Positions 9,193-63,832 of a stretch of DNA of 64,000 nucleotides are shown here, one piece after another. Within the stretch, counting starts at the first letter, position 1. Every line of letters begins with the position of its first letter. Under the pieces are notes generated by a model, which saw only the letters and a list, made by a program, of their open reading frames with translations, searched no databases and was not told the origin of the DNA. Source of the stretch: Lonicera japonica (lineage: Eukaryota > Streptophyta > Magnoliopsida > Dipsacales > Caprifoliaceae); NCBI GenBank assembly GCA_021464415.1, contig CM038466.1, positions 33,138,833-33,202,832 of the forward strand. Direction: 5' to 3'. The position numbers and the translations under genes were made by a program.

Positions 9193-9270
9193 TATTTATA
9201 GCAAAAAAGAGGGACCTGTACCTGTTTGTCGCGTGACAAACCCATATCCAGGAGGGATTGTCGCGCGACA
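9193..9270 (-). promoter_or_regulatory. Promoter of antisense accessory gene 2 in A: two palindromic dodecamers plus TATA box
   Basis: On the minus strand TGTCGCGCGACA (9259-9270) and its variant at 9227-9238 (one CpG decayed) lie 32 bp apart upstream of TATAAATA (9193-9200). The ATG follows at 9154. The same arrangement occurs in element B, with three dodecamers at 32-bp spacing. Confidence 0.7.
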
Positions 9271-13831: not shown

Positions 13832-13935
13832 GTAGGATATGTGGTCAGTCCGCGTAGGCTTATTTTGTGGGTGTTGTGCGACAAAGGCCATATTGTCCGG
13901 CGACAAAGGGCTCCCCACCGAAGTGTCGCGCGACA
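13832..13935 (-). promoter_or_regulatory. Decayed promoter of the antisense PMD gene (A)
   Basis: One perfect dodecamer TGTCGCGCGACA (13924-13935) and two decayed ones (near 13872-13885 and 13893-13906, with TTGTCCGGCGACAA) lie where element B has three perfect copies. The B TATATAA box is replaced here by a CATATCC-like sequence, so this promoter is probably dead. Confidence 0.55.
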
Positions 13936-15761: not shown

Positions 15762-17321
15762 TGTAGACACCGCGATCCGTGACCCCCGCAAAAACTCTAA
15801 CGACCTTCGAGACTACTATTTTTGGAGTCCAGGACACACCCGAGCACCCGAAACTACCCCGGGGGGGTTTGTTGCGCGACAAACCTATTTTTATAAAGGA
15901 TTGTCGCACGACATATCACATTGTCGCGCGACAATCATTGGAATGTCGCGCGACAATACCACTATGACGCGCGACAATCCCTCTCTGCACCTGACCAACC
16001 ACTTTCTGACACATCACAGTGTCAGGACCCATCACTTCAGCCGTTTGTCGCACGACATACAGGAATGTCGCGCGACAAACAGATAATGTCGCGCGACACT
16101 TGCCTTTTTTGGGGAAATGTCGCGCGACAATCTTCCCGAGCAGTATAAATAGGCCAACACCCCCAAGGGTTCAAGGGCAGCAATTGGAATTGAGAATTTG
16201 GAGCTTTAGATTTGATTTTTATCAAGCACTTTTCTACTATTATCTTATTTCTGAAGAATTATCGAATCTATCCCCGACACTCGACGTGTCCCGTCTCCGG
16301 AATCGATTTCTCGGAAATATCTGAAGAAAGAGAAGATTATTATCGCCAGAGATCCCTCTGCCGTATTTATTTTTTCTTTCTTATTATTATTCTCGTCGGG
16401 AAGGTAAAGAAAGTCCCTTCTAGTATTTAAAATTAGATATCTGTGTACTTGTTTTACTTCTGTTTTTCTGTCCACGTTTTATTTGAATAAACTTATTGTC
16501 AAGTTACAAATAGTCTATCGTTTTCGACACAAAAGACCCTGATAAAAACCACTTTCAAAACCAGAAGAGTAGGTACATTATCGTCCATAAACCCTATTTT
16601 CAAACCCCGGACCGATAAAAGACTTATCTAGGAATTAAAAACCACATATCCTGTCTTTTCATAGACTGCGATGTGTCTGATAAACTCTCCTTAAGAGTCG
16701 TGATTCCATATTAAATTAGTCCCGATATAGATCCGAACTTTCACAAAAGTAAACACAACACAGAGAAAACCGTCATTATCTGAGGAAATATACGGGATAC
16801 TCTTTCAAAATAAAAGGTTTTGTCATGTGTATTTACATCTTTTCAATAAATAAAACATCGGATCTCGGAACACAAAGGTTTTCATCCCTTTCCTCGTCTT
16901 CCCCCAGAAATTAGGGTTTTCATTTGAAAAGTAGTAAACTGTCAGTAAAAGCATCCAAGTTTTTCAACATAGAATAAACATATAAGACCACTAGAGACCG
17001 AAAGGGCGGAATGGGGCTTAATATACCTTCCCAAACCGTAATATAGTTTCCGAACCCTATAGAATCCTGGTTCGCAGACAAAACGTGTAAAGAAAGGCTT
17101 ATCTTTAGCCTTTCCCCTTACACACCCCCTTTTTGTCCGTTTTCTCGTAAAACGTACTGGCGACTCTGAACAAACCCCTTTGCATCTAGAATAGACGTAG
17201 GGACACCCGATATGAATCATCAAACAACTCCAAGCAAATGGAGCGACGGAATCCCTTCCGACGCTTCAGACGCCCAACGAACGGGGACGAGACCCGGGGG
17301 TCGCATTTGCGGATTCTCACA
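15762..17321 (+). repeat. 3' LTR of element A
   Basis: 1560 bp, TGTAGACACC to CTCACA, homologous to both LTRs of element B but clearly more diverged from them than they are from each other. U3 carries nine 12-bp palindromes and a TATA box. The next five bases (GTACT, 17322-17326) are the candidate target duplication; the partner is outside the window. Confidence 0.93.
15870..16151 (+). promoter_or_regulatory. LTR promoter of element A: nine phased palindromic dodecamers and TATA box
   Basis: TGTCGCGCGACA or one-base variants start at 15870, 15902, 15922, 15944, 15965, 16046, 16066, 16087 and 16118. Spacings are 32, 20, 22, 21, 81, 20, 21 and 31 bp. TATAAATA is at 16144-16151, 15 bp after the last copy. 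The variants (TGTTGCGCGACA, TGTCGCACGACA twice, TGACGCGCGACA) are mostly CpG-decay changes. Element B preserves the same spacing. Confidence 0.8.
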
Positions 17322-45523: not shown

Positions 45524-47091
45524 TGTGAGAATCCGCAAATGCGGCCCCCCGGGTCTCGTCCCCGTTGGTGGTGGGGGTCATGGGACGTCGGAACTGATTC
45601 CGTCGTTCCATTTGCTGGAGCGTTTTCGTTGATTCATATCAAGTGTCCCTACGTTCTATTTCTAGATGCAAGGGGGTTCATTCAGAGTCGCCAGTACGTT
45701 TTACGAGAAAACGGACAAAAAAGGTCGTGTAAGAGGAAAGGCTATAGACAAGCCTTTCTTTACACGTTTGTCTGCGAAACCGGGATTCTTATAGGGTTCG
45801 GAAACTATATTACGGTTTGGGAAGGTGTTAAGCACCCATTCCGCCCTTTCGGTCTCTAGTGGTCTTATATGTTTATTCTATGTTGAAAAACTTGGATGCT
45901 TTTACCGACAGTCTACTACTTTCTAAATGAAAAAAAACCCTAATTTGGGAAAACGGGGAAAGGAATGAAAACCTTTGTGTTCCGAGATCCGATGTTTTTA
46001 TATTTAAAAGATGTAAATGACAAATGACAAAAACCTTTTATTTTTGAAAGAGTATTCCGTATTATTTCCTCAGATAATGACGGTTTTCTCGAGTTGTGAT
46101 TATTCTGAAAAAGGTTCGGATCTTTATGTCGGGACTAATTCAATATGGAATTTGAACTCTTTGAGGAGAGTTTATCAGACACGTCGCAGTCTATGAAAAA
46201 GACAGGATATGTGGATTTTAATTCCTAGATAAGTCTTTATCGGTCCGGGGTTTTGAAAACAGGGTTTATCCGGACGATAATATACTTACTCTTCTGGTTT
46301 TGAAAGTAGTTTTATCAGGGTCTTTTGTTTTGAAAACGGTAGACTATTGGTAACTTGACAATAAGTTTATTCAAATAAAACGTGGACAGAATAACAGAAG
46401 TAAAACAAGTACACAGATATCTAATTTTAAATACTATAAGGGACTTTCTTTACCTTCCCGACGAGAATAATAATAAGAAAGAAAATATAATACGGCAGAG
46501 GGATCTCTGGCGATAGTAATCTTCTCTTTCTTCAGATATTTCCGAGAAATCGATTCCAGAAACGGAACACGTCGAGTGTTGAAATAGATTCGAGAATTCT
46601 TCAGAAATAAGATAATAGTAAAAAAAATGCTTGACAAAAATCAGATCTAAAGCACCAAATTCTCGGATTCTAATCGCCTCCCTGAACCCTTGGGGTGTTG
46701 GCCTATTTATACTGCTCGGGAGAGATTGTCGCGCGACATTTCCTTAAAAAAGGAGAATGTCGCGCGACATTGTGATATGTCGCGCGACATACGGGAATGT
46801 CGCGCGACAAACGGCTGAAGTGATGGTTCTGACAGATTGATGTGTCAGAAAGTGGTTGGTCTGGTGCAGAGGGGGAATGTCGTGCGACATAGTGGAATTG
46901 TCGCGCGACATATCAGGGATTGTCGCGCGACAATGTGATATGTCGTGCGACAATCTCTCTAAAAAACAAGTTTGTCGGGCGACAAACCCTCCTAGTGTAG
47001 TACCGGGTCCTCGGGTGGGTCCCGGACCCAAAATAGTAGTTCTCGGAGGTCGTTAGGGTTCTTGCGGGGGTCACGGATCGGGGTGTCTACA
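45524..47091 (-). repeat. 3' LTR of element B
   Basis: 1568 bp, TGTGAGAATCC to GGTGTCTACA on the plus strand. Compared with 62264-63832 there are substitutions at about 45982 (C/T), 46437 (T/G) and 46967 (C/T), and one G fewer in the G run near 46692. Confidence 0.96.
46704..46984 (-). promoter_or_regulatory. LTR promoter (3' LTR copy): nine palindromic dodecamers and TATA box
   Basis: TGTCGCGCGACA or a central variant starts at 46727, 46758, 46778, 46798, 46878, 46899, 46921, 46941 and 46973; variants are TGTCGTGCGACA (twice) and TGTCGGGCGACA. TATAAATA on the minus strand is 46704-46711, 15 bp from the nearest copy. Spacings are 31, 20, 20, 80, 21, 22, 20 and 32 bp. Confidence 0.8.
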
Positions 47092-47100
47092 GACCCTCTC
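47092..47100 (-). promoter_or_regulatory. Polypurine tract of element B (weak)
   Basis: Minus-strand GAGAGGGTC directly before the 3' LTR, same as in element A. Confidence 0.5.
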
Positions 47101-47302: not shown

Positions 47303-47684
47303 GCCTCAGATGGGAGGACTACCGTATGCCTCTCTGGGAGGGCTTTGCCTCAGGTGGGAGGACTACCGTTCGTGCCTCTCTGGGAGGGCTTCGCCTCAGG
47401 TGGGAGGACTACCGTTCGTGCCTCTCTGGGAGGGCTTCGCCTCAGGTGGGAGGACTACCGTTCGTGCCTCTCTGGGAGGGCTTCGCCTCAGGTGGGAGGA
47501 CTACCGTTCGTGCCTCTCTGGGAGGGTTTTTTTAGATCTTCTTGCCTCATGTGGGAGGACTACCATTGTGCCTCTCTGGGAGGGCTTCGCCTCAGGTGGG
47601 AGGACTACCGTTCGTGCCTCTCTGGGAGGGCTTCGCCTCAGGTGGGAGGACTACCGTTCGTGCCTCTCTGGGAGGGCTTTTAAT
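47303..47684. repeat. GC-rich 46-bp tandem repeat (B)
   Basis: About eight units of TGCCTCTCTGGGAGGGCTTC plus GCCTCAGGTGGGAGGACTAC, homologous to 14880-15545 but shorter. One unit near 47526-47550 carries an insertion with TTTTTTTAGATCTTC. All three plus-strand frames are open because the unit is 46 bp. No protein is inferred. Confidence 0.92.
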
Positions 47685-47699
47685 CTGTAAGAAGAAAGA

Positions 47700-48627
47700 A
47701 AATTGCCTCTGGGAGGGCTTCTTGTGAGTACTTTTTGCCTCTGGCGAGGGCTTGTGTTTGTGTTTTGCCTCCGAAGAGGGCTTGTGTTGTGATAAAAAAT
47801 ACTTATTGTCTCTCTTTAGACCGCTAGAGTGAGAGAGAGAAATCCTCGTGAGGGTGGTAAGAGCTCCTCAAGGTCTAATCTTATCCGGATAACCGTTTTC
47901 TTGCGCCTTTCTCGAACTTTACTCTCATGTTTTCCTCGAGCGAGGATACCTCTCTTGGAAGGCAGTTTTCGATTTTCTCTTGTTTCTCGCAGTGCGATGA
48001 TTCGAGATTTTTTCCAAACCATTTCTCCTTTATCATGCTGAAAAGAAAATTTGTTTTGAAAGTTCAACCTCTGATCTCTGTTCTTTTCTTAGTTTTCTCT
48101 TTTGGTGGGCCCACATCGTATTCTGTTTTTTCGATGCCCTTATTTCTTCCTCTTTTGGGAAAGACTTTTCCTGGCCTTCTCTGTTTTTGACCAGGAGTCT
48201 TTTTGTCCCTTTGTCGTGATCAGGAGCCTTACTCACCCAAAACGAAGCCCTGAGCCGGTTTTGGCCTAGCTGTCACTTTTGGTGTGGCTCTCCCTGTCAC
48301 TCTGCATTTCTGTTTCTCTCGCTCGCTCTGGGCGCTCATGCGGGTTCTTTCTCTTTTTTACTTTTTCAATTTTTTCTATTCCCGTTTTATCGTGGCATTC
48401 TGCCTTTTCTCTTTGCTGGTCTCGGTCCTTTCTGTGAGATCAGAGACTACTTTAATCATGGCATTCCGTTCTCGCGTTTTCCGGAGAGATGATTTGGAAG
48501 TTTTATTCTTTAAATTTCATCCTGAGTGTGCGGTTTTTAGCAATTTTCGAAAACTGCTTCTCTGAAGTACCCCTGCAGGAGATAAAAAATGAGAAAAAAG
48601 GTCAAAAATTCAGGGGATGGGGGGGAT
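47700..48627. other. Spacer between 46-bp array and PMD promoter (B)
   Basis: Aligns with 13936-14879 of element A. No conserved reading frame across both copies. Confidence 0.5.
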
Positions 48628-48710
48628 TGTCGCGCGACACTTCGGTACAGGGGTCTTTGTCGCGCGACAATGTGGCCATTTGTCGCGCGACAATCCTCTT
48701 CACTATATAA
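48628..48710 (+). promoter_or_regulatory. Promoter of the antisense PMD gene: three palindromic dodecamers and TATA box
   Basis: Perfect TGTCGCGCGACA at 48628-48639, 48658-48669 and 48681-48692 (spacing 30 and 23 bp), then TATATAA at 48704-48710. The ATG is 138 bp further on at 48848, with a CT-rich stretch between, typical of a plant 5'UTR. Confidence 0.75.
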
Positions 48711-48847
48711 TCCCTTGCTGAGCTCATTCCACCTCATTCTCTCCTCTCTCCTTCTCTCTCTAGCTCTCTTTCTCTCTCTTTCCGAGCGCGGAAGCCCTGC
48801 CGCTTTTCCGATTTTTCCGACCTTTTCACATATTCTACCTATACCTG

Positions 48848-51800
48848 ATGGACCCCGCACATCCTGATAGATTGGAGGGTGACCAGGAGGAGGTCACTTT
48901 TACAGACGCTCAGGGCGTTCTCCGCTGCAGCCCTCATCATGACGACTGGGCGGACTTGGATTGGTACGATGAGGATGGGATCAACCGCGGTCGGGCGGTG
49001 GTCTATAGGGACATTACCCGGGCTGCTCCGGTCCCGGATGTCCCATGGCTCTTGATGGAGCCTGTCTCTCACGAGATTCGCCGTCGATCTCTGGTATGTC
49101 TTCCTTTTGTGTATTTATCTGTTCCATTATTTCTGTTGTTTCCTGCATGTGTTTTTAAACAATGTTAGTATGCATGCCTGCCCAGAAATGATGTCCGATT
49201 TAGTGAAACTCGTACTTTTTACCTGTGATACCCTTTAGAAAATTATAAAATGTACCCTTATAGTCCTATAACGCTCATAATTACCCCAAAGTACCCTCAG
49301 GTTTGGAAAATTACATAATTTACCCTTATAACCTTATAACTCTCATATTTACACCAAGGTACCCCCAGGTTTTGGAAAATGACATAATTTACCCCTATAG
49401 CCCTATAACTCTCATAATTACACCAAGGTACCCTCAGGTTTTTAGAAAATTACATAATTTACCCCTATAGCCCTATAACTCTCATAATTACACCAAAGTA
49501 CCCTCAGGTTTTAGAAAATTTACATAATTTACCCCTATAGCCCTATAACTCTCATAATTACACCAAAGTACCCTCAGGTTTTAGAAAATTACATAATTTA
49601 CCCCTATAGCCCTATAACTCTCATAATTACACCAAAGTACCCTCAGGTTTTAGAAAATTACATAATTTACCCCTATAGCCCTATAACTCTCATAATTACA
49701 CCAAAGTACCCTCAGGTTTTAGAAAATTACATAATTTACCCCTATAGCCCTATAACTCTCATAATTACACCAAAGTACCCTCAGGTTTTAGAAAATTACA
49801 TAATTTACCCCTATAGCCCTATAACTCTCATAATTACACCAAAGTACCCTCAGGTTTTAGAAAATTACATAATTTACCCCTATAGCCTTATAATTCTCAT
49901 AATTACACCAAAGTACCCTCAGGTTTTAGAAAATTACATAATTTACCCATAAAGCCTTATAACTCTCATAATTACACCAAAGTACCCTCAGGTTTTAGAA
50001 AATTACATAATTTACCCCTATAGCCCTATAACTCTCCTAATTACACCAAAGTACCCTCATAACCCCATACTCGTTCCTTTGTCTGCAGTGGGTTGGCCGC
50101 GGTTGGGGTTCCCCCAACACTATATCTTCGGAGTGGCGACGGGCACCGGCCCCTGTCCAGGAGTTGATCTTCGCGACTCCTTTCGGCTCCCTCTTCGACG
50201 CCCTCCCAGAGCGAGTATCTAGGGCGACAGTTTTAGTATCGGCTCTGGCTTGCCACTGGTGGGACACCACCCATACCTTTCACTGGAGCTGGGGGGAGAT
50301 GACGATGACTCCCCTCGATTTGTTTGCTTTGACCGGGATCCCTTCAGGGGGGGTCCCCATTCAGATCGATGTCCCCTTGCGTCTGACAGCCGAGGGCATC
50401 GTTAGTTCATTAGGATGGTTTCCGGAGCGACGGAGTTCCGGCGACACGATTCCTCGGGGCGTCTTGGTTACGCGGTTAGCCACAGAGAGGGCTCGACTAG
50501 CTGCTTCAGGGGTTCCTATGACCCGTCAGGAGGCGCGCCAGTATGCCCGCGTCCTCCTTCTACTGACACTTCATGATCTATTCGAGGCTCGTGGTGGGGA
50601 CACGGCTCATCTTTGGTGGTTGCCCTATCTTCGGGACTTCAGCCTCATGTTTGACTACGACTGGGGAGGCTTCATTCTTGCAGTCCTTTACGATGCCATG
50701 GACCAGGTCTCTCGTCATTTAGCCCTGAACCTCAAGGGCTTTTCTTTGCTGTGGGAGGTACATTTTTTAGTCTTTCTGTCTTTGCTTCAGTTCTTTGCTC
50801 ATTACTTGTTGATCATTGCTGATTTCTTCTATCTTTCCTTTTCAGAGCTGGTTTGTAGCTTATACCCGTCTGGGTCGCGCCCAGGTGGATCTCCTCGTTG
50901 AGAACGAGGACCAGTTCCCTTTTCTCCGCCGATTCATCGTGGGGAACTATAGGGCTCCCTATGTATACCGGACTCGGGAGACCGGAGCTGCTGCTGTTCA
51001 TGATCTGCGGGAGGAGCAGGTAAAATATTTTTAGTTTTCTTGCTTTTCCATAGTCAGATAAAGTAGAATATATAAAATACTGAAATAAAATCTTATTCTC
51101 TTTTCAGATTGAGTGGGCCCCTTGGGGTGATCTGGGTCATCATTATGGGTATGGCCGTGCTCTGACTGCCTCGAGGACCAGGCGGCTTATTCGGGATGAG
51201 TACGGTCTTCTCTTCTACTTGGGCGAGAGGGTCATTCGTCAGCATACGCCGTCCCAGTGGCCTCGTGTCCCTTTGTTCCCTCCTGTTCTGATGAGGCGGA
51301 CGGGTGAGATTGATCAAGTGATGGTGCAGGCTTTAGTCGACGGACTCGGTTTCCAGACGTTCGTCGAGGAGGGAGACTACGCTGTTTTTGCTGCCCGTTA
51401 CCTGATGAGGGAGCCGAAGGGGACTCGGGGACGGGTCTTCTACGAGAGATACCAGACTTTGGGAGGTGATCCTCATTACATACGGGGACAGACTCATTTA
51501 GCTAGGGCGGTCCCGGGTCATTTGCCACCTGTCCCTGATCAGAGGGACAACATTCCGGATTCTGAGGATGAGGATCCTGAGGGAGAGAGGGATGTTCCTG
51601 CTGCGGCTGAGGGCGGTGGTCGGCCAGAGGGCGAGGGAGGTGATGCGACAGCGGTTCCGGAGCCGCCACCTCAGGCGACACCTACGGGGGAGCAGCGCGC
51701 TGAGGGCTTCGAGTTTCCCACCGGCCCTTCCGTGTCTCCGGGGGGCCTTTTTGCTGCTGCTGAGGCTGCTGAGGGGAGAGCGGGATTTTCTGAGAGGTCC

Positions 51801-52675
51801 TGGGAGCCCGCGGACCTTGGGGCAGATTTTGATCAGTTTGGGCGGACTCCTCCCGCGGCGGTGACTACTCCTTCTAGTGGGGTACCTCCTTTGGGGGCGA
51901 CGGCCATGGTGGATCCTCCGGGGGTCCGAACATATGCTACGTTGACCCCTTTACCGACGACTGTCATGGGGCCTCCCGCCCGATCTCCGGGCTTTGGCGG
52001 CTCATCCTCTCGTCCACCCTTGTTCCCCATTCGTGAGGGGGGAGGGTCTTCTTCTGCAGCTGCTCCTGCGGGGTCATCTATTTCGTGGGTAGATCTACCT
52101 CCACTCCCCAGAGATATTTCTTATGTCGGCGCGGGCCTATGTCGATATTCTGTCCCGGAGTATCCCCTTCCCGAGGATACTTTTGATTTCTTGGGTGGTC
52201 GCTCTGATGATGAGGTATCTTCTTCAACTTCTCCTGATACTTTTATGTTTATATCTATTTATTTTGACTGTGCTGATTCTCCTCTTATTGTATGTCTTTT
52301 TTACAGAGAGTGGGTGTACGGGTGGCGGATCTACGGGCCTGGTATGCCCAGTATTTCTACAGCTGGAACCTGCTCCAGTACGTCGGTCGAGACCCTCCAG
52401 CCTACATGCGCGACTATCAGAGGGCTATCGACGTCTCCTTACGGCCGGACGACCCCCTGACCTCTTCCCATGCTAGGTCGGAGTCTAGGCGGAGTAGTAG
52501 TCGGACTTCTAGGCGGTCCCGATCTTCGGTGATTCGTCCGACGGCGCCTGTTCAGTCTACGGGTCTTTCCCAGGCGGCAGCTCCTCTTGCTCCCAGCGTC
52601 CCAGTTGTTGATCTTACTCCCGAGGAGGGCTCGGGTGATAGCGGGAGCGTGTCAAAACGCGCCCGAGTAGATTAG
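48848..52675 (+). CDS. Antisense accessory gene 1: plant mobile domain (PMD) protein, five exons
   Basis: Exons inferred from GT-AG sites: 48848-49093, 50089-50757, 50846-51019, 51108-52214 and 52307-52675. All junctions are phase 0, and together they give 2565 bp, 854 residues. Exon 2 holds THTFHWSWGEMTMTPLDL (from about residue 143), the signature of PMD/aminotransferase-like proteins such as Arabidopsis MAIN and MAIL1 and their transposon relatives. Exons 3-4 continue the domain (SWFVAYTRLGRAQVDLL, GYGRALTASRTRRLIRDEYG). A long Pro/Gly/Ser/Ala-rich, probably disordered stretch follows, and the C-terminus is basic (RRSSSRTSRRSRSS) ending KRARVD, nuclear-localisation-like. Cellular PMD proteins act in silencing and genome maintenance; the role here is unknown. 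The gene runs opposite to gag-pol, has its own promoter, and is fully open. Confidence 0.85.
49240..50060. repeat. 69-bp minisatellite inside intron 1 of the antisense PMD gene (B)
   Basis: About 12 units built on ATTTACCCCTATAGCCCTAT, AACTCTCATAATTACACC and AAAGTACCCTCAGG. Central units are almost identical, the first ones diverged. It fills most of the 995-bp intron (49094-50088); the acceptor CTGCAG follows directly. Confidence 0.95.
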
Positions 52676-52992
52676 TTTTCTTTTTCTGCATTAGTGTTAG
52701 TTGGACAGATATGTATTTACTTTAGACGGATATTTAAAAACTGTTCTTTTATTGGTTTTATAAAATATATTTATCTGTGTTTGATTATACTTTTATTCTC
52801 TGTCTGTGCAAGATATATACATATATATATAAGAGTTTGGTAATTAAAAAGTCATACCTTGTAGTGTAGTGATACTTATGTTTCCTGCAAAAAAAGAACC
52901 AAGTGAGAACAGAAAAGCATCCAGAAGTGATTCTTTTGGCAAAGATGACCATTATGTATAAGGAAAAAAGTAGGGTGCCCCCCAGATGGTTT
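52676..52992. other. Spacer between antisense genes (B)
   Basis: Presumed 3'UTR/terminator of the PMD gene and upstream region of the next gene, with a TA microsatellite at about 52810-52830. No gene seen. Confidence 0.55.
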
Positions 52993-53104
52993 TGTCGCGC
53001 GACAATCCCTCCTGGTCATGGGTTTGTCGCGCGACACTTACCCCTGAAAATGGGTTTGTCGCGCGACAAACAGGTACAGGACCCTCTTTTTTTTGCTATA
53101 AATA
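52993..53104 (+). promoter_or_regulatory. Promoter of antisense accessory gene 2: three palindromic dodecamers and TATA box
   Basis: Perfect TGTCGCGCGACA at 52993-53004, 53025-53036 and 53057-53068, each 32 bp apart, then TATAAATA at 53097-53104. The ATG is at 53143, leaving a 5'UTR of only about 10-15 bases if transcription starts 30 bp after the TATA. Element A has two copies here, so one 32-bp unit was gained or lost. Confidence 0.75.
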
Positions 53105-53142
53105 CACCCATCTTCCTTCCTTCATCCCCACACCTCTCCAAA

Positions 53143-54399
53143 ATGTCTTCCTACCGTACCAACTCTGATTTTTCTTATGTTAAAGCTCGAGATGCTCTGA
53201 TATCTTCTGAAAATGGTTTGAACTTTGGTGCATTTAGTCCTTTGGCGGGCTGGTGCCATCGTCCTGTAGATTTTTCCTTTCTGTTAGGTGCCTTGTATTT
53301 CTGGAGTCCCGCGGACCATCTCTTCCGTTTTGGACTAGACGAGCTCTGCCCAACCTATGAGGAGTTCTCCTGGCTGTTACGTTCTGACGTTTGTCTCCCG
53401 ATGGCAGTTCCTATAGAAGGAATCGGTCCCCGCGACATGCTAATTGCTCTGTTAGCCATTCCCCAAGCGGCCTGCGATGGTTTCATTGTCGACGGGCTCC
53501 TTGACCTCCACAAAATGGTGAGGTTCTTTCATCGTTATGAAGACAGGGCCTCTTACGGCGTGGGGCGTACTGCAGCGGCCCTGATTTGCCTGGTTTCTGA
53601 TATGCTGCTGGTGACGGGTTCTTCCCGTGTTGATCCGATTATCTTGAGTCTGATTTACCAGGCTAGAAATGGGGAGTCTATAGTGCCGATCATTCTTGCA
53701 GAGACCTTGAATGGTCTTGATGATGTTCAACGGGGGGCCTCGCCCTTCTTCCGAGGGAGCCCGCGTCTGCTATACATGTGGCTGTTAGAGCGCTTTCGAT
53801 CGGTGGGTTTCAGCGGAGTTCGGCTCGACAATCCGACTCATTTCTTCCATCGGCCTCTCTTTGGTGCTTTGACCATGTCTTCCTCTGATTGGACGGTGTG
53901 GTTTTCGGAGAACTTTCGGGCCATCCGGTGGAACATTCCTTGGTGGAAGCTGAGGGCGATGGTACTTAGCACCGGGGGTCAGAACTACGTTCGGCTCCGC
54001 GGGCTCTGGTTTACCTCCTTTTATCTCCCAGGTCGTCTTCTTCGGCAGTTCAACGTTCCTCAGGATATTCCTCTCGGCCTGAACAACTTCTCCTCTGAGT
54101 CCAAATTTGTGACCCAGCATGTCTCCCTATCAGTAGAGAGGATGTGGCGTGCTCGATTGACTCGGCGGTTTAACTATGCTCGTTTCGGTATTTCCAGGCC
54201 CCTCCGGGCTGACATTATCCGCTCTTGCTGGCAATCTCTAGAAGGAGAGCTGACTGATGACCCCTTTCAAATGGAGTGGTTCCGATTCATGGATTCTGAG
54301 CCTACAGAGGATGGCATTGTCTTTGCGTACCAGATTTTGGATGAGGCTCGAATTGATTTGGCCGCTGAGGACCCAGTGTGGCCAACCCCTAGGGATTAG
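53143..54399 (+). CDS. Antisense accessory gene 2: 418-aa retroelement-associated protein, DUF7745-like
   Basis: The start is taken at ATG 53143 (MSSYRTNSDFSYVKARDAL), because the TATA box is at 53097-53104 and element A conserves this ATG; the upstream in-frame extension to 52903 lies in the promoter. Single exon, stop TAG 54397-54399. Residues 52-79 read YFWSPADHLFRFGLDELCP followed by TYEEFSWLL, a pattern I associate with plant retroelement proteins of the DUF7745 type, distantly like PMD proteins; this assignment is from memory. No transmembrane segment, zinc finger or catalytic motif was recognised. It is convergent with pol, whose stop lies 228 bp away. Intact here, frameshifted in A. 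Function unknown. Confidence 0.75.
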   Translation: MSSYRTNSDFSYVKARDALISSENGLNFGAFSPLAGWCHRPVDFSFLLGALYFWSPADHLFRFGLDELCPTYEEFSWLLRSDVCLPMAVPIEGIGPRDMLIALLAIPQAACDGFIVDGLLDLHKMVRFFHRYEDRASYGVGRTAAALICLVSDMLLVTGSSRVDPIILSLIYQARNGESIVPIILAETLNGLDDVQRGASPFFRGSPRLLYMWLLERFRSVGFSGVRLDNPTHFFHRPLFGALTMSSSDWTVWFSENFRAIRWNIPWWKLRAMVLSTGGQNYVRLRGLWFTSFYLPGRLLRQFNVPQDIPLGLNNFSSESKFVTQHVSLSVERMWRARLTRRFNYARFGISRPLRADIIRSCWQSLEGELTDDPFQMEWFRFMDSEPTEDGIVFAYQILDEARIDLAAEDPVWPTPRD

Positions 54400-54627
54400 T
54401 TTCTTCTTTGTATGCTGTACTTCCTTTGTAACTCTCGGTGTTCTGAACCACCTCTTTAATAATATATGAAGGGACTTTTTATGAGAAATAAATTTCTTTA
54501 CAAAGCTTTAAACCGGGCCTGAAGTCACTTCTCAGGTTGCCTACGTTCCCCCCCTTTTTGATTTTTTTCAGAAAATACAATATTCGAGTTGGGGCTCAGG
54601 TTTACGTAGTTCTTATACATGTCGTGC

Positions 54628-57600
54628 TTATTGATAATACTTCTTCAGTCGGTCCATGTTGACTGGTGAATGTAGTAACTGCCCGTCTAGGTCAGTGAGT
54701 ATAGCGGCGCCCCCTGTATTGATTTCTTTGACGATATACGGCCCTGTCCACTTCTGCCCGAACTTTCCCCTCGGATCTCTGGCTGGCTCTCGAATTTCTT
54801 TCAACACGATGTCATTTTCAGTGATACCCCGAGTCCTCACTCTCTGGTTAAATGCTCGAGCGATTCTCTTCTGATATCCTTGATGGTGGTATGCGGCTTT
54901 CAATCTTTTCTCATCTAGTAAGGCTAGCTCGTTATAACGTGCCTGGACCCACTCCAGTTCATTGACCTGATTCTCTAGCATTACTCTGAGGGAAGGGACC
55001 TCTAACTCGACAGGGAGGACTGCTTCCATCCCGTATGTAAGCGAGAACGGGGTTGCCCCGGTAGAGACCCTTTCGGTGGTGCGGTATCCCCACAATGCAT
55101 ATGGTAATTTCTCCGGCCAGTCCTGGCAGGTGTCGGTCATCTTGCTTAGGATATTCTTCAAATTCTTGTTGGCGGCTTCAACTGCCCCATTGGTTTGTGG
55201 TCTATATGGCGAAGATTTGTGTCGGGTGATACCGTATTCCTCCATGACTGTATTAGCTTCTCCTTCGAAGTGGGTGCCGTTATCTGAGATGATCTCGTGT
55301 GGGACCCCATATCGGCAGACAATATTCCTTTTGATGAATCGGGCAACTTTCCTGGCATCCAGGGTTTGGTAAGATTCGGCTTCCACCCATTTGGTGAAGT
55401 AGTCGATGGCTACTAGTATGAATTCATGGCCGTTGCTGGCTTTGGGTGAGACTTTCCCAATGACGTCAATTCCCCAGGCTGAAAAAGGCCAGGGAGCAGT
55501 CATGTTGTACAACTCTTTTGGAGGAAGCTTCTGGGACTTAGCATAAATTTGGCATTTGTGACAACGGCGTACATGATCAGCGCAGTCAGTTTGTAGGGTA
55601 GACCAGAAATACCCTTGCCTGATGATCTTGCGGGCAAGCGTATGCCCGCTCATATGAGGTCCGCAATCGCCCCCATGTATCTGATCCATCATTCTAACTG
55701 ATTCTTCTTCGGTGAGACATTGAAGATGAGTCCCGTCGTAGTTCCTCTTATATAATCTTCCGGCACAGAGTATGAATCCTGATGCTAGTCTCCTGAGTGT
55801 GACCCGTGTTTTCTTGTCTGCTTTCTCGGGATACTGATGGTTCTTCAGCAGGTTCCAGATATCATAAAACCAAACGGTTGAGTCACCGTCTTTTTCAATT
55901 TCCACCTCAAGGGTCATGCAGTGCGCGGGTCCTGATTTCTTTTGTACCGTGAGGGTTATTTCTTCCATCCCCTCCGGAATATCGATCATAGATGCCAGGG
56001 TTGCCAATGCGTCAGCAAAACTGTTCTGGGACCTGGGGATATAGTAAAACTCCACACGCTCGAACCTTCCTGCGACTTCTTCTAGTCGGGCGAGGTAAGG
56101 GACCAATTTCTCATCTCTGATCTTCCATTCCTTCAGAACTTGATGGACCACTAGTGCTGAATCTCCGTATACCTGTATCCTCCTTATACCCCTTTGAAAA
56201 GCGATCTCTAACCCGAGTATGTAGGCTTCATATTCGGCCATATTGTTGGTGCAGAAGAAGTCCAATCGATATGATACCGGGGAGTGAGTTTGGTCTGGAG
56301 AGACTAACAGGATGCCTATCCCGTTTCCGTTCCGATTGGCGGCCCCGTCAAAGTACAACCTCCAGTCTTCATTGATCTCGACGTTCATGATGGTTTCGTC
56401 CGGGAATTCGGCTTCTTCTATCATGTCTCCCAATATCGGATTGTGGGCCAGGTAATCAGCTATGATCTTGCCTTTGACTGCCTTCTGGGTCATGTAGGTG
56501 ATGTCGAATTCGGAGAGTAGAAATAACCATTTTGCCATTCGATTCGAGAGAGCCGGTTTCTCGAAGAGGTATTTCAACGGATCAATCCGTGATGCCAGGA
56601 TGACTGGAAAAACTAGCATGTAGTGCCGTAGTTTCTGTGTTACCCAGACGAGAGCGGTACACAATTTTTCCAATGGTGTGTAGTTTATCTCAAATGGGGA
56701 TAGCTTTTTGCTGAGGAAATAGATGGCCTGCTCCTTCCGGGTATCGGTGAGGTGTTGGGCTAGCATTGCTCCCGCGGCTGAATCAGTGACGGTTAGGTAT
56801 AGAATTAGTGGTAGTCCGATCTGAGGCGGGGCTAACACTGGGGGCTTGGAGAGGTAATCTTTGATTTTGTCAAAAGCCTCCTGGCATTGATCGTTCCATT
56901 CTCCTGTTGAAGACTTCCTCAGGAGTTTGAAGATGGGTTCGCACTTTTGAGTGAGCTGAGAGATAAACCTACTGATGTACTGCAGATTACCCAAAAAACC
57001 CCAGATTTCTCTCTCGGTACGAGGCTCGGGCATGTCTTGGATAGCTTGAACTTTAGCGGGGTCCACCTCGATTCCTTTCTTACTGACGACATATCCCAGG
57101 AGTTTTCCTTTGGTTACCCCGAACACACATTTCTGCGGATTGAGTCTCATCTGATACTGGCGGAGCCGATCAAAGAAGGCTCGCAAGGCTGGTACGTGGC
57201 CTTCCCTCTCTTTTGACTTGATTATCATGTCGTCTACATATACCTCTACTTCTTTGTGAATCATGTCGTGAAAGATAGCCGTAGCTGCCCTCTGATATGT
57301 TGCCCCGGCGTTCTTCAGCCCAAACGGCATAACGGTGTAGCAGTATGTTCCCCACGGTGTGATAAATGCTGTTTTCTCCTGGTGATCCGGGTGCATCTTG
57401 ATCTGGTTATATCCGGCAAAACCATCCACAAATGACTTCAGGGCGTGGTTGGCAGTATTATCTACTATCAAATCGATGTTGGGCAATGGAAAATCGTCCT
57501 TTGGACAAGCTTTATTGAGATCCCGGTAATCCACACACATGCGGACTTTCCCATTAGCCTTTGGAACAGGCACGATGTTGGCTAACCACGAGGGGTACTC

Positions 57601-59433
57601 GATCACCCGTAAGAATCCCACACTCAGTTGTTTCATTACTTCTTCTTTCACTTTCAAGGACCATTCTGGCGTAAGTTTCCTCAGCTTCTGTTTGACGGGC
57701 CTAAGTTCTGGATTGGTGTGTATTTCGTGCATGACTATCTGACTGTTCAAACCCGGCATATCTGCATAAGACCAGGCGAAGACATCCACATACTCTTTCA
57801 GAGTTTGTGTGAATTCTTCTCTCTCTGTCCCACTTAGGCTTGCCCCAATGCGGACCTCTTTTCTTTCCTCCTCTGTTCCGAGGTTAATCACAAGAGTGTC
57901 TCCTTCCTCGCTTTGTATACGTTGATCCTCCCGTTCAGGGTGTTCGTTCATTCTTTCCAATTCCATATAAGCAATTACAGAATTAAAAATAACAGGATAA
58001 CGCAAAATAGACTCTTCTTTATTGATACTAGTATTTACAGGTACAAGTTTAAAAAGTTCATTTAGGAGTGACTCCTTCCTATCCTTACCCTCACTCTTAT
58101 CTCTCACCCTTACAATTTCGCTCTTTTCCCTTTCCCCTTGGTAGTCTGGATCAGCGTATATCAAGTGTACAGGGTCATCTCCTGGCTCATCATCTCCCAG
58201 AGCCATGATGTCGAAGAGATCTCCGATCATTTCTTCCTCTTCGCCTTTCATGTCTTCACTTTCTTCCTTCGGCCCGATTGTCAACTTGGTAGCGAAGCTG
58301 TGTACGGTGTTTTCTTTGATATATAGGTCCTCTTCATAGAAGATTTCCCACCCAGGAAGGTTCTCTCCGTCGCTGTTTCTCCAAGGCTCCTGGAAGCCGC
58401 AAAAGGGGAAGTCCTCTCCTTCTTTGACAAAGAACCCGTTCAGAGAGCTGAAACTCGGATACTGATGCCCTCGACCCCTTTTTTGTTGATCGTCCTCTTC
58501 AGTGTGTTGGTACCCCAAACCTTCCCTCTCGTACCTTGCTACTGGTTCCAATGCTTGAAGTAGTCCTGGTTGTCCCATTCCCAGACCGGCTCCAGGCAAG
58601 TATTTCATCATTCTCAACATATTTGTAATCTTGGTGCTGAGACCGGGGATATTGTCAGGGGGAAGATACCTGATTGTCTGGGTGCTAAGAGTTTGCACTT
58701 GAGGCTCGTAAGAAAAGCCTCCTAACTGTATGCTCTGGCTCCCGATTCCCAAAACTGGTAACTCCATATCCGCCAAGGTCCTTTCAGGATCTCCTTGGAT
58801 GGTAATTATGTTCCCTTCAAACGGTATCTTGATCTTTTGGTGCAAGGAGGAGGGGAGTGCTCCTATGTCGTGTAGCCATGCTCTTCCCAACAGTAGGTTA
58901 AAACTGGAAGGAATGTCTATGATTTGAAAGTCGGCCGGGAAGCTTCCGGGACCAACCATGAGATCAAGTTTCAGAGACCCCAGAACGGCCCTCCTGGTAT
59001 TATCATAGGCCCTGACGGTTACAGCGGATGGTGAGAGCTCTGAATCTGAGATACCCAAGCATCTGGCAGTCTTTAGGGGGCAGACATTTATGGTCGACCC
59101 ATTGTCGATGAGAACTTGTGGCAAGATCTTCCCTCGGGTTCGGACGGTGATATGGAGAGCCAGGCTGTGTTTTCTCCCCAACGGAGACAAGTCTTCATCT
59201 GAAAATGACAGACTTCTTTGGACTGTGAGTGACCCGATCATGTTTGGCAGTTGTTCGGGCGTGGAGTCCGGCGATATGACAGCCTCATCCAGGAGTTTAA
59301 TGAAAGCGGTCCTGTGAGGTTTGGAGGCAACCAAGAGGCCCCAAATGGTGATGTGTGCCTGGGTTTTCTTCAACTGTTCCAGTACTCGGTCTTCTCCTAC
59401 TTCTTTTGGAGGCGGTGATTTTTCGGCATCCAT
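54628..59433 (-). CDS. pol: pol polyprotein of element B (PR, RT, RNase H, second RNase H, INT)
   Basis: 1601 open codons. From the ATG at 59433: protease LIDNGSTINVCPL (Asp about residue 110), G-patch-like YLPGAGLGMG (about 278), RT with PFGLKNAGATYQR and YVDDMI (about 730), a connection/degenerate RNase H (LTVTDSAAGAMLAQ, IYFLSKKLSPFE), an additional RNase H (YFDGAANRNG about 1028, AEYEA, GDSALV, FADALA), an HHCC finger (HGGDCGPHMSGH to CHKCQ, about 1250) and an integrase core (GIDVIG about 1320, SDNGTHF about 1384, Glu in VEAANK about 1420). No chromodomain; ends LKKYYQ. The frame really opens at ATG 59568, overlapping the gag stop, but a TAG at 59470-59472 (codon 33; element A has CAA there) separates that start from the rest. 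Enzymatic motifs look intact. Confidence 0.93.
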   Translation of the reverse strand: MDAEKSPPPKEVGEDRVLEQLKKTQAHITIWGLLVASKPHRTAFIKLLDEAVISPDSTPEQLPNMIGSLTVQRSLSFSDEDLSPLGRKHSLALHITVRTRGKILPQVLIDNGSTINVCPLKTARCLGISDSELSPSAVTVRAYDNTRRAVLGSLKLDLMVGPGSFPADFQIIDIPSSFNLLLGRAWLHDIGALPSSLHQKIKIPFEGNIITIQGDPERTLADMELPVLGIGSQSIQLGGFSYEPQVQTLSTQTIRYLPPDNIPGLSTKITNMLRMMKYLPGAGLGMGQPGLLQALEPVARYEREGLGYQHTEEDDQQKRGRGHQYPSFSSLNGFFVKEGEDFPFCGFQEPWRNSDGENLPGWEIFYEEDLYIKENTVHSFATKLTIGPKEESEDMKGEEEEMIGDLFDIMALGDDEPGDDPVHLIYADPDYQGEREKSEIVRVRDKSEGKDRKESLLNELFKLVPVNTSINKEESILRYPVIFNSVIAYMELERMNEHPEREDQRIQSEEGDTLVINLGTEEERKEVRIGASLSGTEREEFTQTLKEYVDVFAWSYADMPGLNSQIVMHEIHTNPELRPVKQKLRKLTPEWSLKVKEEVMKQLSVGFLRVIEYPSWLANIVPVPKANGKVRMCVDYRDLNKACPKDDFPLPNIDLIVDNTANHALKSFVDGFAGYNQIKMHPDHQEKTAFITPWGTYCYTVMPFGLKNAGATYQRAATAIFHDMIHKEVEVYVDDMIIKSKEREGHVPALRAFFDRLRQYQMRLNPQKCVFGVTKGKLLGYVVSKKGIEVDPAKVQAIQDMPEPRTEREIWGFLGNLQYISRFISQLTQKCEPIFKLLRKSSTGEWNDQCQEAFDKIKDYLSKPPVLAPPQIGLPLILYLTVTDSAAGAMLAQHLTDTRKEQAIYFLSKKLSPFEINYTPLEKLCTALVWVTQKLRHYMLVFPVILASRIDPLKYLFEKPALSNRMAKWLFLLSEFDITYMTQKAVKGKIIADYLAHNPILGDMIEEAEFPDETIMNVEINEDWRLYFDGAANRNGNGIGILLVSPDQTHSPVSYRLDFFCTNNMAEYEAYILGLEIAFQRGIRRIQVYGDSALVVHQVLKEWKIRDEKLVPYLARLEEVAGRFERVEFYYIPRSQNSFADALATLASMIDIPEGMEEITLTVQKKSGPAHCMTLEVEIEKDGDSTVWFYDIWNLLKNHQYPEKADKKTRVTLRRLASGFILCAGRLYKRNYDGTHLQCLTEEESVRMMDQIHGGDCGPHMSGHTLARKIIRQGYFWSTLQTDCADHVRRCHKCQIYAKSQKLPPKELYNMTAPWPFSAWGIDVIGKVSPKASNGHEFILVAIDYFTKWVEAESYQTLDARKVARFIKRNIVCRYGVPHEIISDNGTHFEGEANTVMEEYGITRHKSSPYRPQTNGAVEAANKNLKNILSKMTDTCQDWPEKLPYALWGYRTTERVSTGATPFSLTYGMEAVLPVELEVPSLRVMLENQVNELEWVQARYNELALLDEKRLKAAYHHQGYQKRIARAFNQRVRTRGITENDIVLKEIREPARDPRGKFGQKWTGPYIVKEINTGGAAILTDLDGQLLHSPVNMDRLKKYYQ

Positions 59434-59564
59434 CGGTGGTGGCTGGTATACCTTTCCTGAGCGGGTAATCTATTGTATCCAAAGGGATGTTGGGTCTGAT
59501 CCTTCTGAAGTTTCTGACGACTCTGGTTCTGCCGACCAACTAAAAGTCCCGGGGGAGGTTTCTG

Positions 59565-60332: not shown

Positions 60333-61511
60333 TCAGGTCAATTCTTCCTCTACCTGTGACCCCATACTCAACAGGGCTCTGAAGTGTGGGAATACATGCT
60401 TTCCCATGCAGTTCAATACAGCTGGAGTAAAATTCTTCTGTATGATTTCTAACTGCTCTTCTTCGTCGGGCCGTTTGGACATTTGGGATGCCATTTCCCT
60501 CCAGCGGGTGACAAAGTCGCTGAAGCTTTCTTTCTTGCCTTGCTTGGCCATTTCCAGGTGTTTACGGGTAATTTCCAAATTCTCGTTGGACCCGTACTTG
60601 GTCATGAATTCTTTGACGATATCCCCCCAAGTTTTCGTGTGGTGTTTCTCTAGGTCGAAGAACCATCTCAGGGCTGCCCCCGTGAGAGTCATGTGAAAAG
60701 CCTGAGCCAGCTCCGGCTCTCCACAGCCGGACACTTGCATGGATCTGATGTAGGATTGGAGATGGGTTTTGGGGGGTGTAGTACCAGTGAATTTGGTGAT
60801 AGAGGGGAGCTTAAATCCTTGAGGTAGTCTGGCTTCTGGGTAGAGGGAAAAGGCGTTCATGTCTGTGATCTCGTCTGCCCCTTTCATCAGAGAAACACCT
60901 CTTTGCAGAACCTTCATCTGCTCTTTCAATTTCTTCATTTCTTCGCTCTCTCTTGACACCTCATCGGGCTGTTCCCGGGCTATCATCGATTCTGCGTATA
61001 CTGCCCGGAGTCGGTTGATGTCTGGGTACTCATTGGGAGGGGCTATTGGGGCTGGTGGAATAGGTCTTGCGGGGACTTGTGGCCATGGTTGATATTGGGG
61101 ATCGAGGCCTTGCTGAGGTTGTGGCCAGACGATGGGTGGCTCTTGTTGTTGGTATGTGGGGCCTGAATCCGGGGCCCATTGGTTCTGATTGTTGGGGTCG
61201 GTTTGAACGGGACCGGCCATGTTGGGGCCCGTTTGGGGTGGATTAGTTCCTTGGATTGGGGGAAGTACTTGTGAAGATTGCCCTTGATTCGGATCTCGAT
61301 TCGGTGGTAGTTGCTCAAACCCGGGTGGTGCGGTCCGTTCGGCTGACAACTCTTCCATTCGAATCCGGGTGTTCTGTTGCTCACTTGTGAGGCTTGCCAA
61401 ATTCATGCTGACGGTCATCAACAAACGGTGCATCTCGGCTAAAGTCGGTTGAACTGCAGACGCCTCGGCTAGGCTCTGATTTGTCTCCTGATTCTCTCGT
61501 CCATCGGCCAT
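60333..61511 (-). CDS. gag: gag of element B, capsid part (392 aa, ends at an in-frame TGA)
   Basis: Starts MADGRENQETNQS at 61511, the same start as element A. Residues 1-150 are Pro/Gln/Asn-rich. A coiled-coil-like EVSRESEEMKKLKEQMKVLQ lies near residue 190. The Retrotrans_gag-like capsid domain follows (FTGTTPPKTHLQSYIRSMQV, GAALRWFFDLEKHH, SFSDFVTRWREMASQM). The frame stops at TGA 60333-60335 inside EEELT; in element A the aligned codon is AAG and the frame continues. The product would form virus-like particles but lack the Cys/His nucleocapsid motif. Confidence 0.88.
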   Translation of the reverse strand: MADGRENQETNQSLAEASAVQPTLAEMHRLLMTVSMNLASLTSEQQNTRIRMEELSAERTAPPGFEQLPPNRDPNQGQSSQVLPPIQGTNPPQTGPNMAGPVQTDPNNQNQWAPDSGPTYQQQEPPIVWPQPQQGLDPQYQPWPQVPARPIPPAPIAPPNEYPDINRLRAVYAESMIAREQPDEVSRESEEMKKLKEQMKVLQRGVSLMKGADEITDMNAFSLYPEARLPQGFKLPSITKFTGTTPPKTHLQSYIRSMQVSGCGEPELAQAFHMTLTGAALRWFFDLEKHHTKTWGDIVKEFMTKYGSNENLEITRKHLEMAKQGKKESFSDFVTRWREMASQMSKRPDEEEQLEIIQKNFTPAVLNCMGKHVFPHFRALLSMGSQVEEELT

Positions 61512-62243
61512 TTCAGGTATGCTTGGTCTTACTAGTCTTCCGGTATGATCTCGACCGGCCCAACCTTCCAGACTGACGTCGCTTTATGGCTGTAGACGAA
61601 ACCACGTGGCGAAGATGAAGGGAGACTATGATGCGACTCGATTTTTGCCAAAAGAATCACTAAAAATGGTCGAGAGAAAACCTCGAAAAATAGGTGTGGT
61701 AAAGTAGCCGTAAGGTGGTACATCCCCTACAGCTGTATGACAAGTGTTTTAACTGACTCAATCTTAGATGCAGCGCAGGTGTTCGAACGGTTAAGGCTTC
61801 AGGCTCCCTCCTTTTTGGCAAGACCTTGCGATATACCCCAAGGGCGGGTACGTGCAAGAATCTTTTGATATACTTCCCGGGTACGTGAGTGTTCTCGTCA
61901 CTCGATATACCTCGGGGGTGTACTTGGCCAAGAAGAGTGGAAGTAAATGCTTTCGGTTTATGTTGGCCCAAGCAAGCCAACTCCCTACTCACTTATAATA
62001 CTTCCGAGGGTTTGGGGTAAATTCACACTCGTAGAACCAATGCATGATTTGTGATAGTGCGTGTAAAGTTCGAAAGGTTGGTTTCACAAATATCATTATC
62101 TTTATTACGTCTTTTCGAAAAACTCCCATTTTTTAGGAAAAGGTTTCTTCTCAATCAATTAACATGAGTAGGGAAAGCAGTAAAAGCAAGTTTTTCAACA
62201 GATAAACAAAGGTCCACATATAAGAGTCTAGTTTTCTAATGGT
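61512..62243. other. Untranslated leader of element B
   Basis: Region between primer site and gag ATG on the minus strand, aligned with 54-780 of element A. A short frame (61660-61992) matches the A frame only partly and has no domain. Confidence 0.5.
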
Positions 62244-62262: not shown

Positions 62263-62263
62263 C

Positions 62264-63832
62264 TGTGAGAATCCGCAAATGCGGCCCCCCGGGTCTCGTC
62301 CCCGTTGGTGGTGGGGGTCATGGGACGTCGGAACTGATTCCGTCGTTCCATTTGCTGGAGCGTTTTCGTTGATTCATATCAAGTGTCCCTACGTTCTATT
62401 TCTAGATGCAAGGGGGTTCATTCAGAGTCGCCAGTACGTTTTACGAGAAAACGGACAAAAAAGGTCGTGTAAGAGGAAAGGCTATAGACAAGCCTTTCTT
62501 TACACGTTTGTCTGCGAAACCGGGATTCTTATAGGGTTCGGAAACTATATTACGGTTTGGGAAGGTGTTAAGCACCCATTCCGCCCTTTCGGTCTCTAGT
62601 GGTCTTATATGTTTATTCTATGTTGAAAAACTTGGATGCTTTTACCGACAGTCTACTACTTTCTAAATGAAAAAAAACCCTAATTTGGGAAAACGGGGAA
62701 AGGAATGAAAACCTTTGTGTTCTGAGATCCGATGTTTTTATATTTAAAAGATGTAAATGACAAATGACAAAAACCTTTTATTTTTGAAAGAGTATTCCGT
62801 ATTATTTCCTCAGATAATGACGGTTTTCTCGAGTTGTGATTATTCTGAAAAAGGTTCGGATCTTTATGTCGGGACTAATTCAATATGGAATTTGAACTCT
62901 TTGAGGAGAGTTTATCAGACACGTCGCAGTCTATGAAAAAGACAGGATATGTGGATTTTAATTCCTAGATAAGTCTTTATCGGTCCGGGGTTTTGAAAAC
63001 AGGGTTTATCCGGACGATAATATACTTACTCTTCTGGTTTTGAAAGTAGTTTTATCAGGGTCTTTTGTTTTGAAAACGGTAGACTATTGGTAACTTGACA
63101 ATAAGTTTATTCAAATAAAACGTGGACAGAATAACAGAAGTAAAACAAGTACACAGATATCTAATTTTAAATACTAGAAGGGACTTTCTTTACCTTCCCG
63201 ACGAGAATAATAATAAGAAAGAAAATATAATACGGCAGAGGGATCTCTGGCGATAGTAATCTTCTCTTTCTTCAGATATTTCCGAGAAATCGATTCCAGA
63301 AACGGAACACGTCGAGTGTTGAAATAGATTCGAGAATTCTTCAGAAATAAGATAATAGTAAAAAAAATGCTTGACAAAAATCAGATCTAAAGCACCAAAT
63401 TCTCGGATTCTAATCGCCTCCCTGAACCCTTGGGGGTGTTGGCCTATTTATACTGCTCGGGAGAGATTGTCGCGCGACATTTCCTTAAAAAAGGAGAATG
63501 TCGCGCGACATTGTGATATGTCGCGCGACATACGGGAATGTCGCGCGACAAACGGCTGAAGTGATGGTTCTGACAGATTGATGTGTCAGAAAGTGGTTGG
63601 TCTGGTGCAGAGGGGGAATGTCGTGCGACATAGTGGAATTGTCGCGCGACATATCAGGGATTGTCGCGCGACAATGTGATATGTCGTGCGACAATCTCTC
63701 TAAAAAATAAGTTTGTCGGGCGACAAACCCTCCTAGTGTAGTACCGGGTCCTCGGGTGGGTCCCGGACCCAAAATAGTAGTTCTCGGAGGTCGTTAGGGT
63801 TCTTGCGGGGGTCACGGATCGGGGTGTCTACA
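62264..63832 (-). repeat. 5' LTR of element B
   Basis: 1569 bp, near-identical to 45524-47091 (three substitutions, one 1-bp indel). It carries the promoter that would drive gag-pol. Confidence 0.96.
63445..63725 (-). promoter_or_regulatory. LTR promoter (5' LTR copy): nine palindromic dodecamers and TATA box
   Basis: Same nine dodecamers as in the 3' LTR, offset by 16,741 bp, the nearest at 63468-63479. Minus-strand TATAAATA at 63445-63452. Confidence 0.8.

Follow-up and report, generated by a model that had tools for sequence, protein, structure and literature searches.

A palindromic dodecamer arrayed before the LTR promoter and two antisense-gene promoters of a Tat-type retrotransposon of Lonicera japonica: a candidate shared operator

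Why should one palindromic dodecamer be repeated in front of three promoters of a single retrotransposon, one of them sense and two antisense? The question is raised by a 64,000-nucleotide stretch of Lonicera japonica DNA (assembly GCA_021464415.1, contig CM038466.1, positions 33,138,833 to 33,202,832 of the forward strand; hereafter the window), which carries two related long terminal repeat (LTR) retrotransposons, A and B. In element B, two antisense genes are positioned between pol and the 3' LTR. A preliminary description of this DNA had placed the dodecamer TGTCGCGCGACA just before the TATA boxes of the LTR and of both antisense genes, with no copies noticed elsewhere in B, and had taken the shared array to suggest a common trans-acting regulator of host or element origin. 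Matches to TGTCGCGCGACA at 0-1 mismatch number 36 in the window, against 0.02 expected (the mean over 100 dinucleotide shuffles of the window). The 24 copies of element B form four clusters; each LTR holds nine copies, and gene 1 and gene 2 are each preceded by three. Every cluster occupies the upstream side of a TATA box directed toward the cluster's own gene (Table 1). The three placements were confirmed, including TATA coordinates of 48704 and 53097, and the absence of further copies proved robust; outside the LTRs and the two antisense-gene promoters, element B contains no copy at <=2 mismatches. Spacings within the 3' LTR array are 31, 20, 20, 80, 21, 22, 20 and 32. The motif core of the Lonicera array is TCGCGCGA, and because TGTCGCGCGACA is palindromic it is usable on either strand.

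Genome-wide (886 Mb), exact copies of TGTCGCGCGACA number 29,561, as compared with 1 for a reversed-pattern control. The first 50 of these places on contig 1, chosen by the motif itself, were examined, and all 50, in 14 of 14 regions, were found to be an LTR, a gene-1 promoter or a gene-2 promoter of B's family; an LTR was present in 12 regions, a gene-1 promoter in 4 and a gene-2 promoter in 2, some regions holding two of these, and the LTR segments were as low as 73-75% in identity to B. Twenty 10-kb samples taken at fixed positions (200 kb) gave the motif at 0-1 mismatch in one sample only, itself a copy of B's family with two sites at the gene-2 promoter (L038). Eighteen of the 20 had neither the motif at 0-1 mismatch nor a match of >100 bp to B's family, and one (L033) carried the gag-pol and gene-2 coding part of the family without the promoter and without the motif. 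The dodecamer was therefore not equally common in unrelated sequence, as far as this small sample extends.

A sample independent of the motif was obtained with a search for the gene-2 protein, from which 20 copies were hand-picked out of the best 100 of 4,446 first-look candidates (the window copy being among the 100). The array was present in all 20, its closest dodecamer ending 26-28 bp ahead of TATAAATA; 18 copies had three sites at <=2 mismatches (three exact in 16), one had two sites and one had a single site. Because these copies are young, they are evidence of generality and not of deep conservation. Six of them were read further, on the LTR and gene-1 side, and each carried the full set of arrays at the LTR, gene 1 and gene 2; LTR sites numbered 8 or 9, and 18 of 18 gene-1 sites were exact. 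The LTR TATA string was present in 6/6 and the gene-1 TATA string in 4/6. The arrays and their positions are shared by the copies read, and the motif is nearly absent from the other sequence sampled.

We favor the reading that the dodecamer is the operator of a dimeric factor joining the LTR and both genes of plant mobile domain (PMD) type, the factor being likelier encoded or recruited by the element than purely a host protein; a rough probability for this reading is 0.43. A dimeric, sequence-specific factor would bind TGTCG-CG-CGACA, best seen as WWTGTCGNNCGACAWW, in rows upstream of the three TATA boxes, and once bound would bring the sense promoter of the LTR and both antisense accessory-gene promoters under its control as a single regulon. 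It may be one of the element's two PMD-type antisense proteins, or be recruited by one, and would protect or read CpG-rich sites that the host would otherwise methylate; the antisense protein could thereby open its own promoter and the LTR in an autoregulatory loop like that of VANC or foamy virus Tas. Binding by a protein, its dimeric state and its action in activation or anti-silencing are what we infer from the layout. An element factor was preferred because the shared site stands at promoters of accessory genes that the element itself carries, because the complete dodecamer seems to be nearly restricted to the family, and because VANC and Tas, precedents of comparable layout, use an element or viral protein. 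The common regulator of the preliminary description thus gains support from a sense and antisense promoter array that is real in the copies read, be the regulator of host or of element origin.

Table 1. Positions of the arrays, promoters and genes of elements B and A in the window
Feature	Position	Strand	Remarks
Element B	45524-63832	-	coded on minus strand
3' LTR of B	45524..47091	-	99.745% identity to 62264-63832 over 1,569 columns
5' LTR of B	62264..63832	-	LTR-LTR comparison
LTR array, 3' LTR	46727..46984		nine copies: 6 exact, 3 one-mismatch
LTR array, 5' LTR	63468..63725		nine copies: 6 exact, 3 one-mismatch
LTR-promoter TATA box, TATAAATA on minus strand	46704..46711	-	15 bp from closest dodecamer
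Gene-1 promoter array	48628..48692		three copies, all exact, spaced by 30 and 23
TATA box TATATAA of antisense gene 1	48704..48710	+	11 bp past last dodecamer
Antisense gene 1, multi-exon	48848..52675	+	exon limits inferred; PF10536 in exon within 50041-50898
Gene-2 promoter array	52993..53068		three exact copies at 32 bp; TRF unit 32 bp
TATA box TATAAATA of antisense gene 2	53097..53104	+	28 bp past last dodecamer
Antisense gene 2, single-exon open reading frame (ORF), 418 aa, PMD/DUF7745-like	53143..54399	+	
pol ORF: reverse transcriptase (RT), RNase H, second RNase H (RVT_3), integrase	54628..59469	-	domain search
gag ORF	60333..61583	-	PF03732, E = 1.7e-11
Element A LTR array	15870..16129		nine copies; colinear with the B array
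Element A gene-1 promoter array	13872..13935		three copies with 0, 2 and 2 mismatches; damaged TATA box
Element A gene-2 promoter array	9227..9270		two remaining copies, 0 and 1 mismatch

Conservation of the motif over its spacers, as gauged by alignment, was modest and uneven. Between the LTRs of A and B, 103/108 motif columns were identical as compared with 277/320 outside (Fisher p = 0.007), and the three promoter regions pooled gave p = 0.025. The gene-1 promoters of five of the six further-read young copies each retained the motif unchanged at 36/36 positions relative to B, over spacers that were 86.6-88.8% identical (p 0.009-0.02; all five share one divergence). Among the motif-found loci, from each of which one exact site was removed beforehand, motif against spacer identity was 746/828 vs 3065/3598 in 12 LTR arrays, 93/96 vs 862/993 in 4 gene-1 promoters and 22/24 vs 405/466 in 2 gene-2 promoters; three single loci (L007 LTR, L013 LTR and L006) exhibited no real motif excess, or the reverse.

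Several results weigh against the operator reading. Neither internal promoter yielded a significant difference between A and B, gene 1 giving 32/36 in the motif vs 205/224 outside (p = 0.80) and gene 2 giving 23/24 vs 210/235 with one site deleted in A (p = 0.28). Among the young copies, the LTR arrays (6 copies) and the gene-2 arrays (20 copies) were too alike for a conservation test, and in two of the 20 gene-2 copies (L051 and L056) the motif was less conserved than the spacer. Domain search recognised no DNA-binding domain in the gene-1 or gene-2 protein. A first structural model of the gene-2 protein was useless (mean pLDDT 38) and a second was moderate (mean pLDDT 61); Foldseek with the latter returned nothing from the PDB at E <= 0.001, and no PDB sequence relative was found at E <= 1. 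Since no known DNA-binding domain and no fold match for gene 2 were recovered, a host factor stays a close rival.

A host transcription factor could bind the array if the element had placed host sites at all three promoters, an account that we regard as possible but somewhat less likely. There are parallels in the LTRs of Tnt1, Tto1 or ONSEN, whose repeated boxes are targets of host MYB, HSF or stress factors. Near-identical palindromes also recur in the Sireviruses of distant plants, where they mainly recover stress-factor sites with no single common factor (PMC2829016). The INDETERMINATE DOMAIN (IDD) zinc fingers are a candidate; the gene-2 promoter of B has TTTGTCGC at all three sites, and this sequence agrees with the IDD binding sequence, TTTGTC(G/C)(T/C)(T/a)(T/a)T (PMC7349898), over the first eight bases of the latter. 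TT precedes TGTC, however, in just 92/266 half-sites, and the last three site positions are unmatched, which leaves the dodecamer short of an IDD target site; moreover, the 12-mer is nearly confined to the element family in the sequence sampled, a distribution that argues against a host site. Two further host families were considered and set aside. CAMTA fits poorly because a T precedes both CGCG cores, which the CAMTA consensus VCGCGB forbids, and the TGTC/GACA spacing is unlike that of ARF inverted TGTC repeats, which are spaced 7-8 bp.

The bases within and around the dodecamer were compared over 133 distinct site contexts drawn from 191 sites, which are partly motif-found and in many cases related, so that p values are rough. 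Flanking positions were A/T at -2 in 98% and at -1 in 91%. Transitions at the central CpG numbered 25 and those at both outer CpGs together 19, where a ratio of 1:2 is expected at equal mutability (p = 0.001). This pattern of substitutions points to half-sites TGTCG and CGACA around a looser center, as a homodimer would read them. Helical phasing of the dodecamers is not claimed. Spacings of 20-23 and 30-32 bp gave R = 0.79 at 10.5 bp over 83 related spacers, and B's 12 intervals gave R = 0.70 (p = 0.003) at 10.5 bp, but phasing was dropped because other periods (10 and 12 among B's intervals) scored higher and the distinct intervals gave p = 0.056.

Another account is passive micro-duplication, by which one promoter segment would have been copied to the others, short tandem growth and homogenisation keeping the copies alike. 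Consistent with such copying, the flanks of LTR sites matched those of gene-1 and gene-2 sites at 6.0 and 6.7 of 16 positions vs 5.3 when shuffled, and arrays do change, as in the rearranged LTR array of L063; the resemblance between gene-1 and gene-2 site flanks was not significant (p about 0.16). We nevertheless judge this account very improbable: spacers differ while the 12-mer is kept, both in the LTR (A vs B) and in gene 1 of five copies, the central and outer CpGs differ in turnover, and the position before the TATA box recurs at all three places.

The copies might alternatively act as nucleic-acid structure, pairing in the RNA of the 3' U3 to form hairpins that feed or block small-RNA silencing, as has been proposed for the palindromes of maize Sireviruses, which are structured and are small-RNA hotspots (PMC5311732, PMC10760457). 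Folded as RNA, the B U3 array gave -126.3 kcal/mol (z = -15.4), a stability that in part follows trivially from the pairing of palindrome copies with one another. With the dodecamers fixed and the spacers shuffled, five LTR arrays still yielded z = -5.3 (B), -4.3 (A), -4.2 (L014), -3.7 (L018) and -3.5 (L005), and with two flanking bases also held, four LTR arrays yielded z = -4.9, -3.9, -4.1 and -2.8. The LTR arrays tested therefore possess a higher-order inverted symmetry beyond the dodecamers, one that recalls the maize Sirevirus palindromes and is largely absent from B's internal arrays, for which the spacer shuffle gave z = -0.2 (gene 1) and -2.0 (gene 2), or 1.0 and -1.3 with flanks held. 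Internal arrays, as promoters, need not be transcribed, and what the three places have in common is a dodecamer and a TATA box, not a fold. Structure is accordingly an unlikely explanation of the motif; folding of the LTR, perhaps an effect in its own right, leaves the internal arrays unexplained.

To what kind of element, and to what kind of protein, would the candidate operator belong? The pol ORF of B contains RVT_1 (635-794), RT_RNaseH (886-988), RVT_3 (1047-1158), H2C2 (1259-1310) and rve (1328-1424). A second RNase H (aRH) between RNase H and integrase marks angiosperm Tat elements (PMC6317226), and its presence here assigns B, on domain order, to the Ty3/gypsy Tat clade of angiosperm Ogre/Retand type. 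Ogre is the best fit, though not a proven one, because PMD genes are reported in 57% of Ogre elements as an extra ORF (PMC6317226), and gene 1 encodes such a domain well above the Pfam cut-off (PF10536, E = 1e-17, 64.8 bits vs 34.9). In Ogre, gag-pro and RT-RH-INT occupy two ORFs with an intron between them; in B, gag is separate, but the pol ORF begins well upstream of RT (Table 1). The Retand-type antisense domain Transposase_28 (PF04195) had no match in five antisense ORFs of B at E <= 0.1, smaller ORFs not having been scanned.

The gene-2 protein matched PMD below the same cut-off (E = 3.3e-4, 20.4 bits vs 34.9); among 16 aligned gene-2 relatives, gene 2 included, matches at E <= 0.01 were to PMD in 5 and to DUF7745 in 5. 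Its ATG lies 46 bp past the start of the gene-2 TATA box, and the protein is 97% identical to LguiA_007186 of Lonicera macranthoides. The gene-2 model of that species begins inside the equivalent of the promoter array, so that the dodecamers are seemingly translated (P0001, first 40 residues); the true start is probably a later ATG past the TATA box.

The preliminary description had element A as the same layout in more decayed form, and both layout and decay were borne out (Table 1), but decay alone does not describe it; identity to B is 86-89% in long BLAST segments, and A is therefore a diverged relative as well. The 5' LTR of A lies beyond the window. The LTRs of B, each 1.57 kb, differ by 3 mismatches and 1 gap, and their identity of 99.745% indicates that the B insertion is young.

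Arrays of this kind have precedents. Sireviruses, which are Ty1/copia elements, likewise repeat a palindromic motif ahead of both the TATA box of the LTR and an extra gene; in 13 elements a palindrome, in most cases with CpG, is present in 8-32 copies, which lie chiefly in the upper LTR half shortly before the TATA box, and in nine env-bearing Sireviruses 77/79 linker copies lie ahead of the env-like gene, with function unproven (PMC2829016). The Lonicera element differs in superfamily, being Ty3/gypsy Tat by pol, in motif, with a TGTCG-CGACA core where all but one Sirevirus have CGG-CCG, and in its internal promoters; none was conclusively identified for Sirevirus env, whereas the two antisense genes here have clear TATA boxes (PMC2829016). 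The statement in the preliminary description that no Tat element with this code had been described agrees with a limited search of the open-licence literature, in which, among the text available, no Tat element was described as sharing an operator between its LTR and its antisense genes; the kind of layout, on the other hand, had already been published for Sireviruses (PMC2829016). The novelty lies in the motif itself, in its occurrence in a Tat/Ogre element and in the pair of antisense promoters with TATA boxes. Antisense accessory genes are themselves a shared trait of Tat elements, as in gene23 of Grande, the TRP28 genes of Retand and the PMD genes of Ogre (PMC7264820, PMC11963269, PMC6317226); Grande gene23 has a known promoter of its own (PMC7264820, PMC11963269), and the parts of these three accounts at hand describe no operator shared between LTR and antisense genes.

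Comparable circuits are known outside plant LTR retrotransposons. Like the Lonicera element, the Arabidopsis VANC/VANDAL system has a short motif dense in its own non-coding regions, accessory genes and array turnover (PMC5735166, PMC10398659), and here too the motif was dense in the family's non-coding regions and rare elsewhere, judging from the first 50 of 29,561 places and the 200 kb of samples. VANDAL is, by contrast, a DNA transposon with a 9-bp non-palindromic motif, and VANC binding and methylation loss were shown by experiment, whereas binding in the Lonicera element is predicted and its proteins are of PMD type (PMC5735166, PMC10398659). In a VANC-type system, related families would also carry a different motif together with a different protein. 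Foamy virus Tas is one regulator for both an LTR and an internal promoter, as proposed here, but it is the known DNA-binding transactivator of an animal retrovirus, whereas the internal promoters of the Lonicera element are antisense and its factor putative (PMC4929722). In Arabidopsis, genes with the 'DOWN' promoter motif in common depend for their expression on the PMD proteins MAIN and MAIL1; the genes are those of the host, however, and direct binding is unproven, the authors proposing either a further transcription factor or direct recognition (PMC7156037). A plant retrotransposon-encoded transactivator of its own LTR was not found in a search of the open-licence literature, where the exact dodecamer string gave only an irrelevant match (chicken PRMT4); viral contigs yielded no gene-2 relative and no paired dodecamers.

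A fuller form of the shared-operator reading, held more tentatively, is a circuit resembling that of a complex retrovirus, in which an antisense PMD-type protein encoded by the element would bind the 12-bp CpG palindrome at its own promoter, at the second antisense promoter and at the LTR, so that methylation would close none of the three. Were this so, feedback would help to account for the expansion of the family to ~30,000 intact operator sites, and the antisense genes of plant retrotransposons would acquire a function; that function in plant LTR retrotransposons is described as an open question (PMC7264820, PMC11963269). By extension, regulators encoded by the elements themselves would use the palindromic arrays of Sireviruses and Tat elements as operators. 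If the antisense proteins bind the dodecamer, plant LTR retrotransposons would have what is apparently their first operator of this type, and the similar, unexplained palindromes of Sireviruses a possible explanation. If a host factor binds instead, its identity would name the cue that drives this abundant element.

Some minor features of the family were recorded alongside. The LTR array at L063:430-737 (read on the minus strand) is rearranged, with a second step spaced by 80-81 bp, a sign of array turnover. L060-L064 have LTR-array spacers 93-99.5% like those of B and gene-1 promoter spacers just 87-89% like them, which suggests recombinant (mosaic) elements; over the longer gene-1 segment of promoter and exon 1, BLAST identity was 79-81%, with masked dodecamers counted as mismatches. 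The pol ORF of B (54628-59469, minus strand) has a sub-threshold G-patch match ahead of RT (E = 6.4e-4, 20 bits, cut-off 22). A 69-bp tandem repeat, with 12 copies in B (49234-50059) and 16 in A (12186-13297), apparently lies in the first intron of antisense gene 1, whose splice sites are predicted, and in B and A alike a 45-46-bp tandem repeat (47302-47679 and 14891-15526) separates the 3' LTR from the promoter of gene 1.

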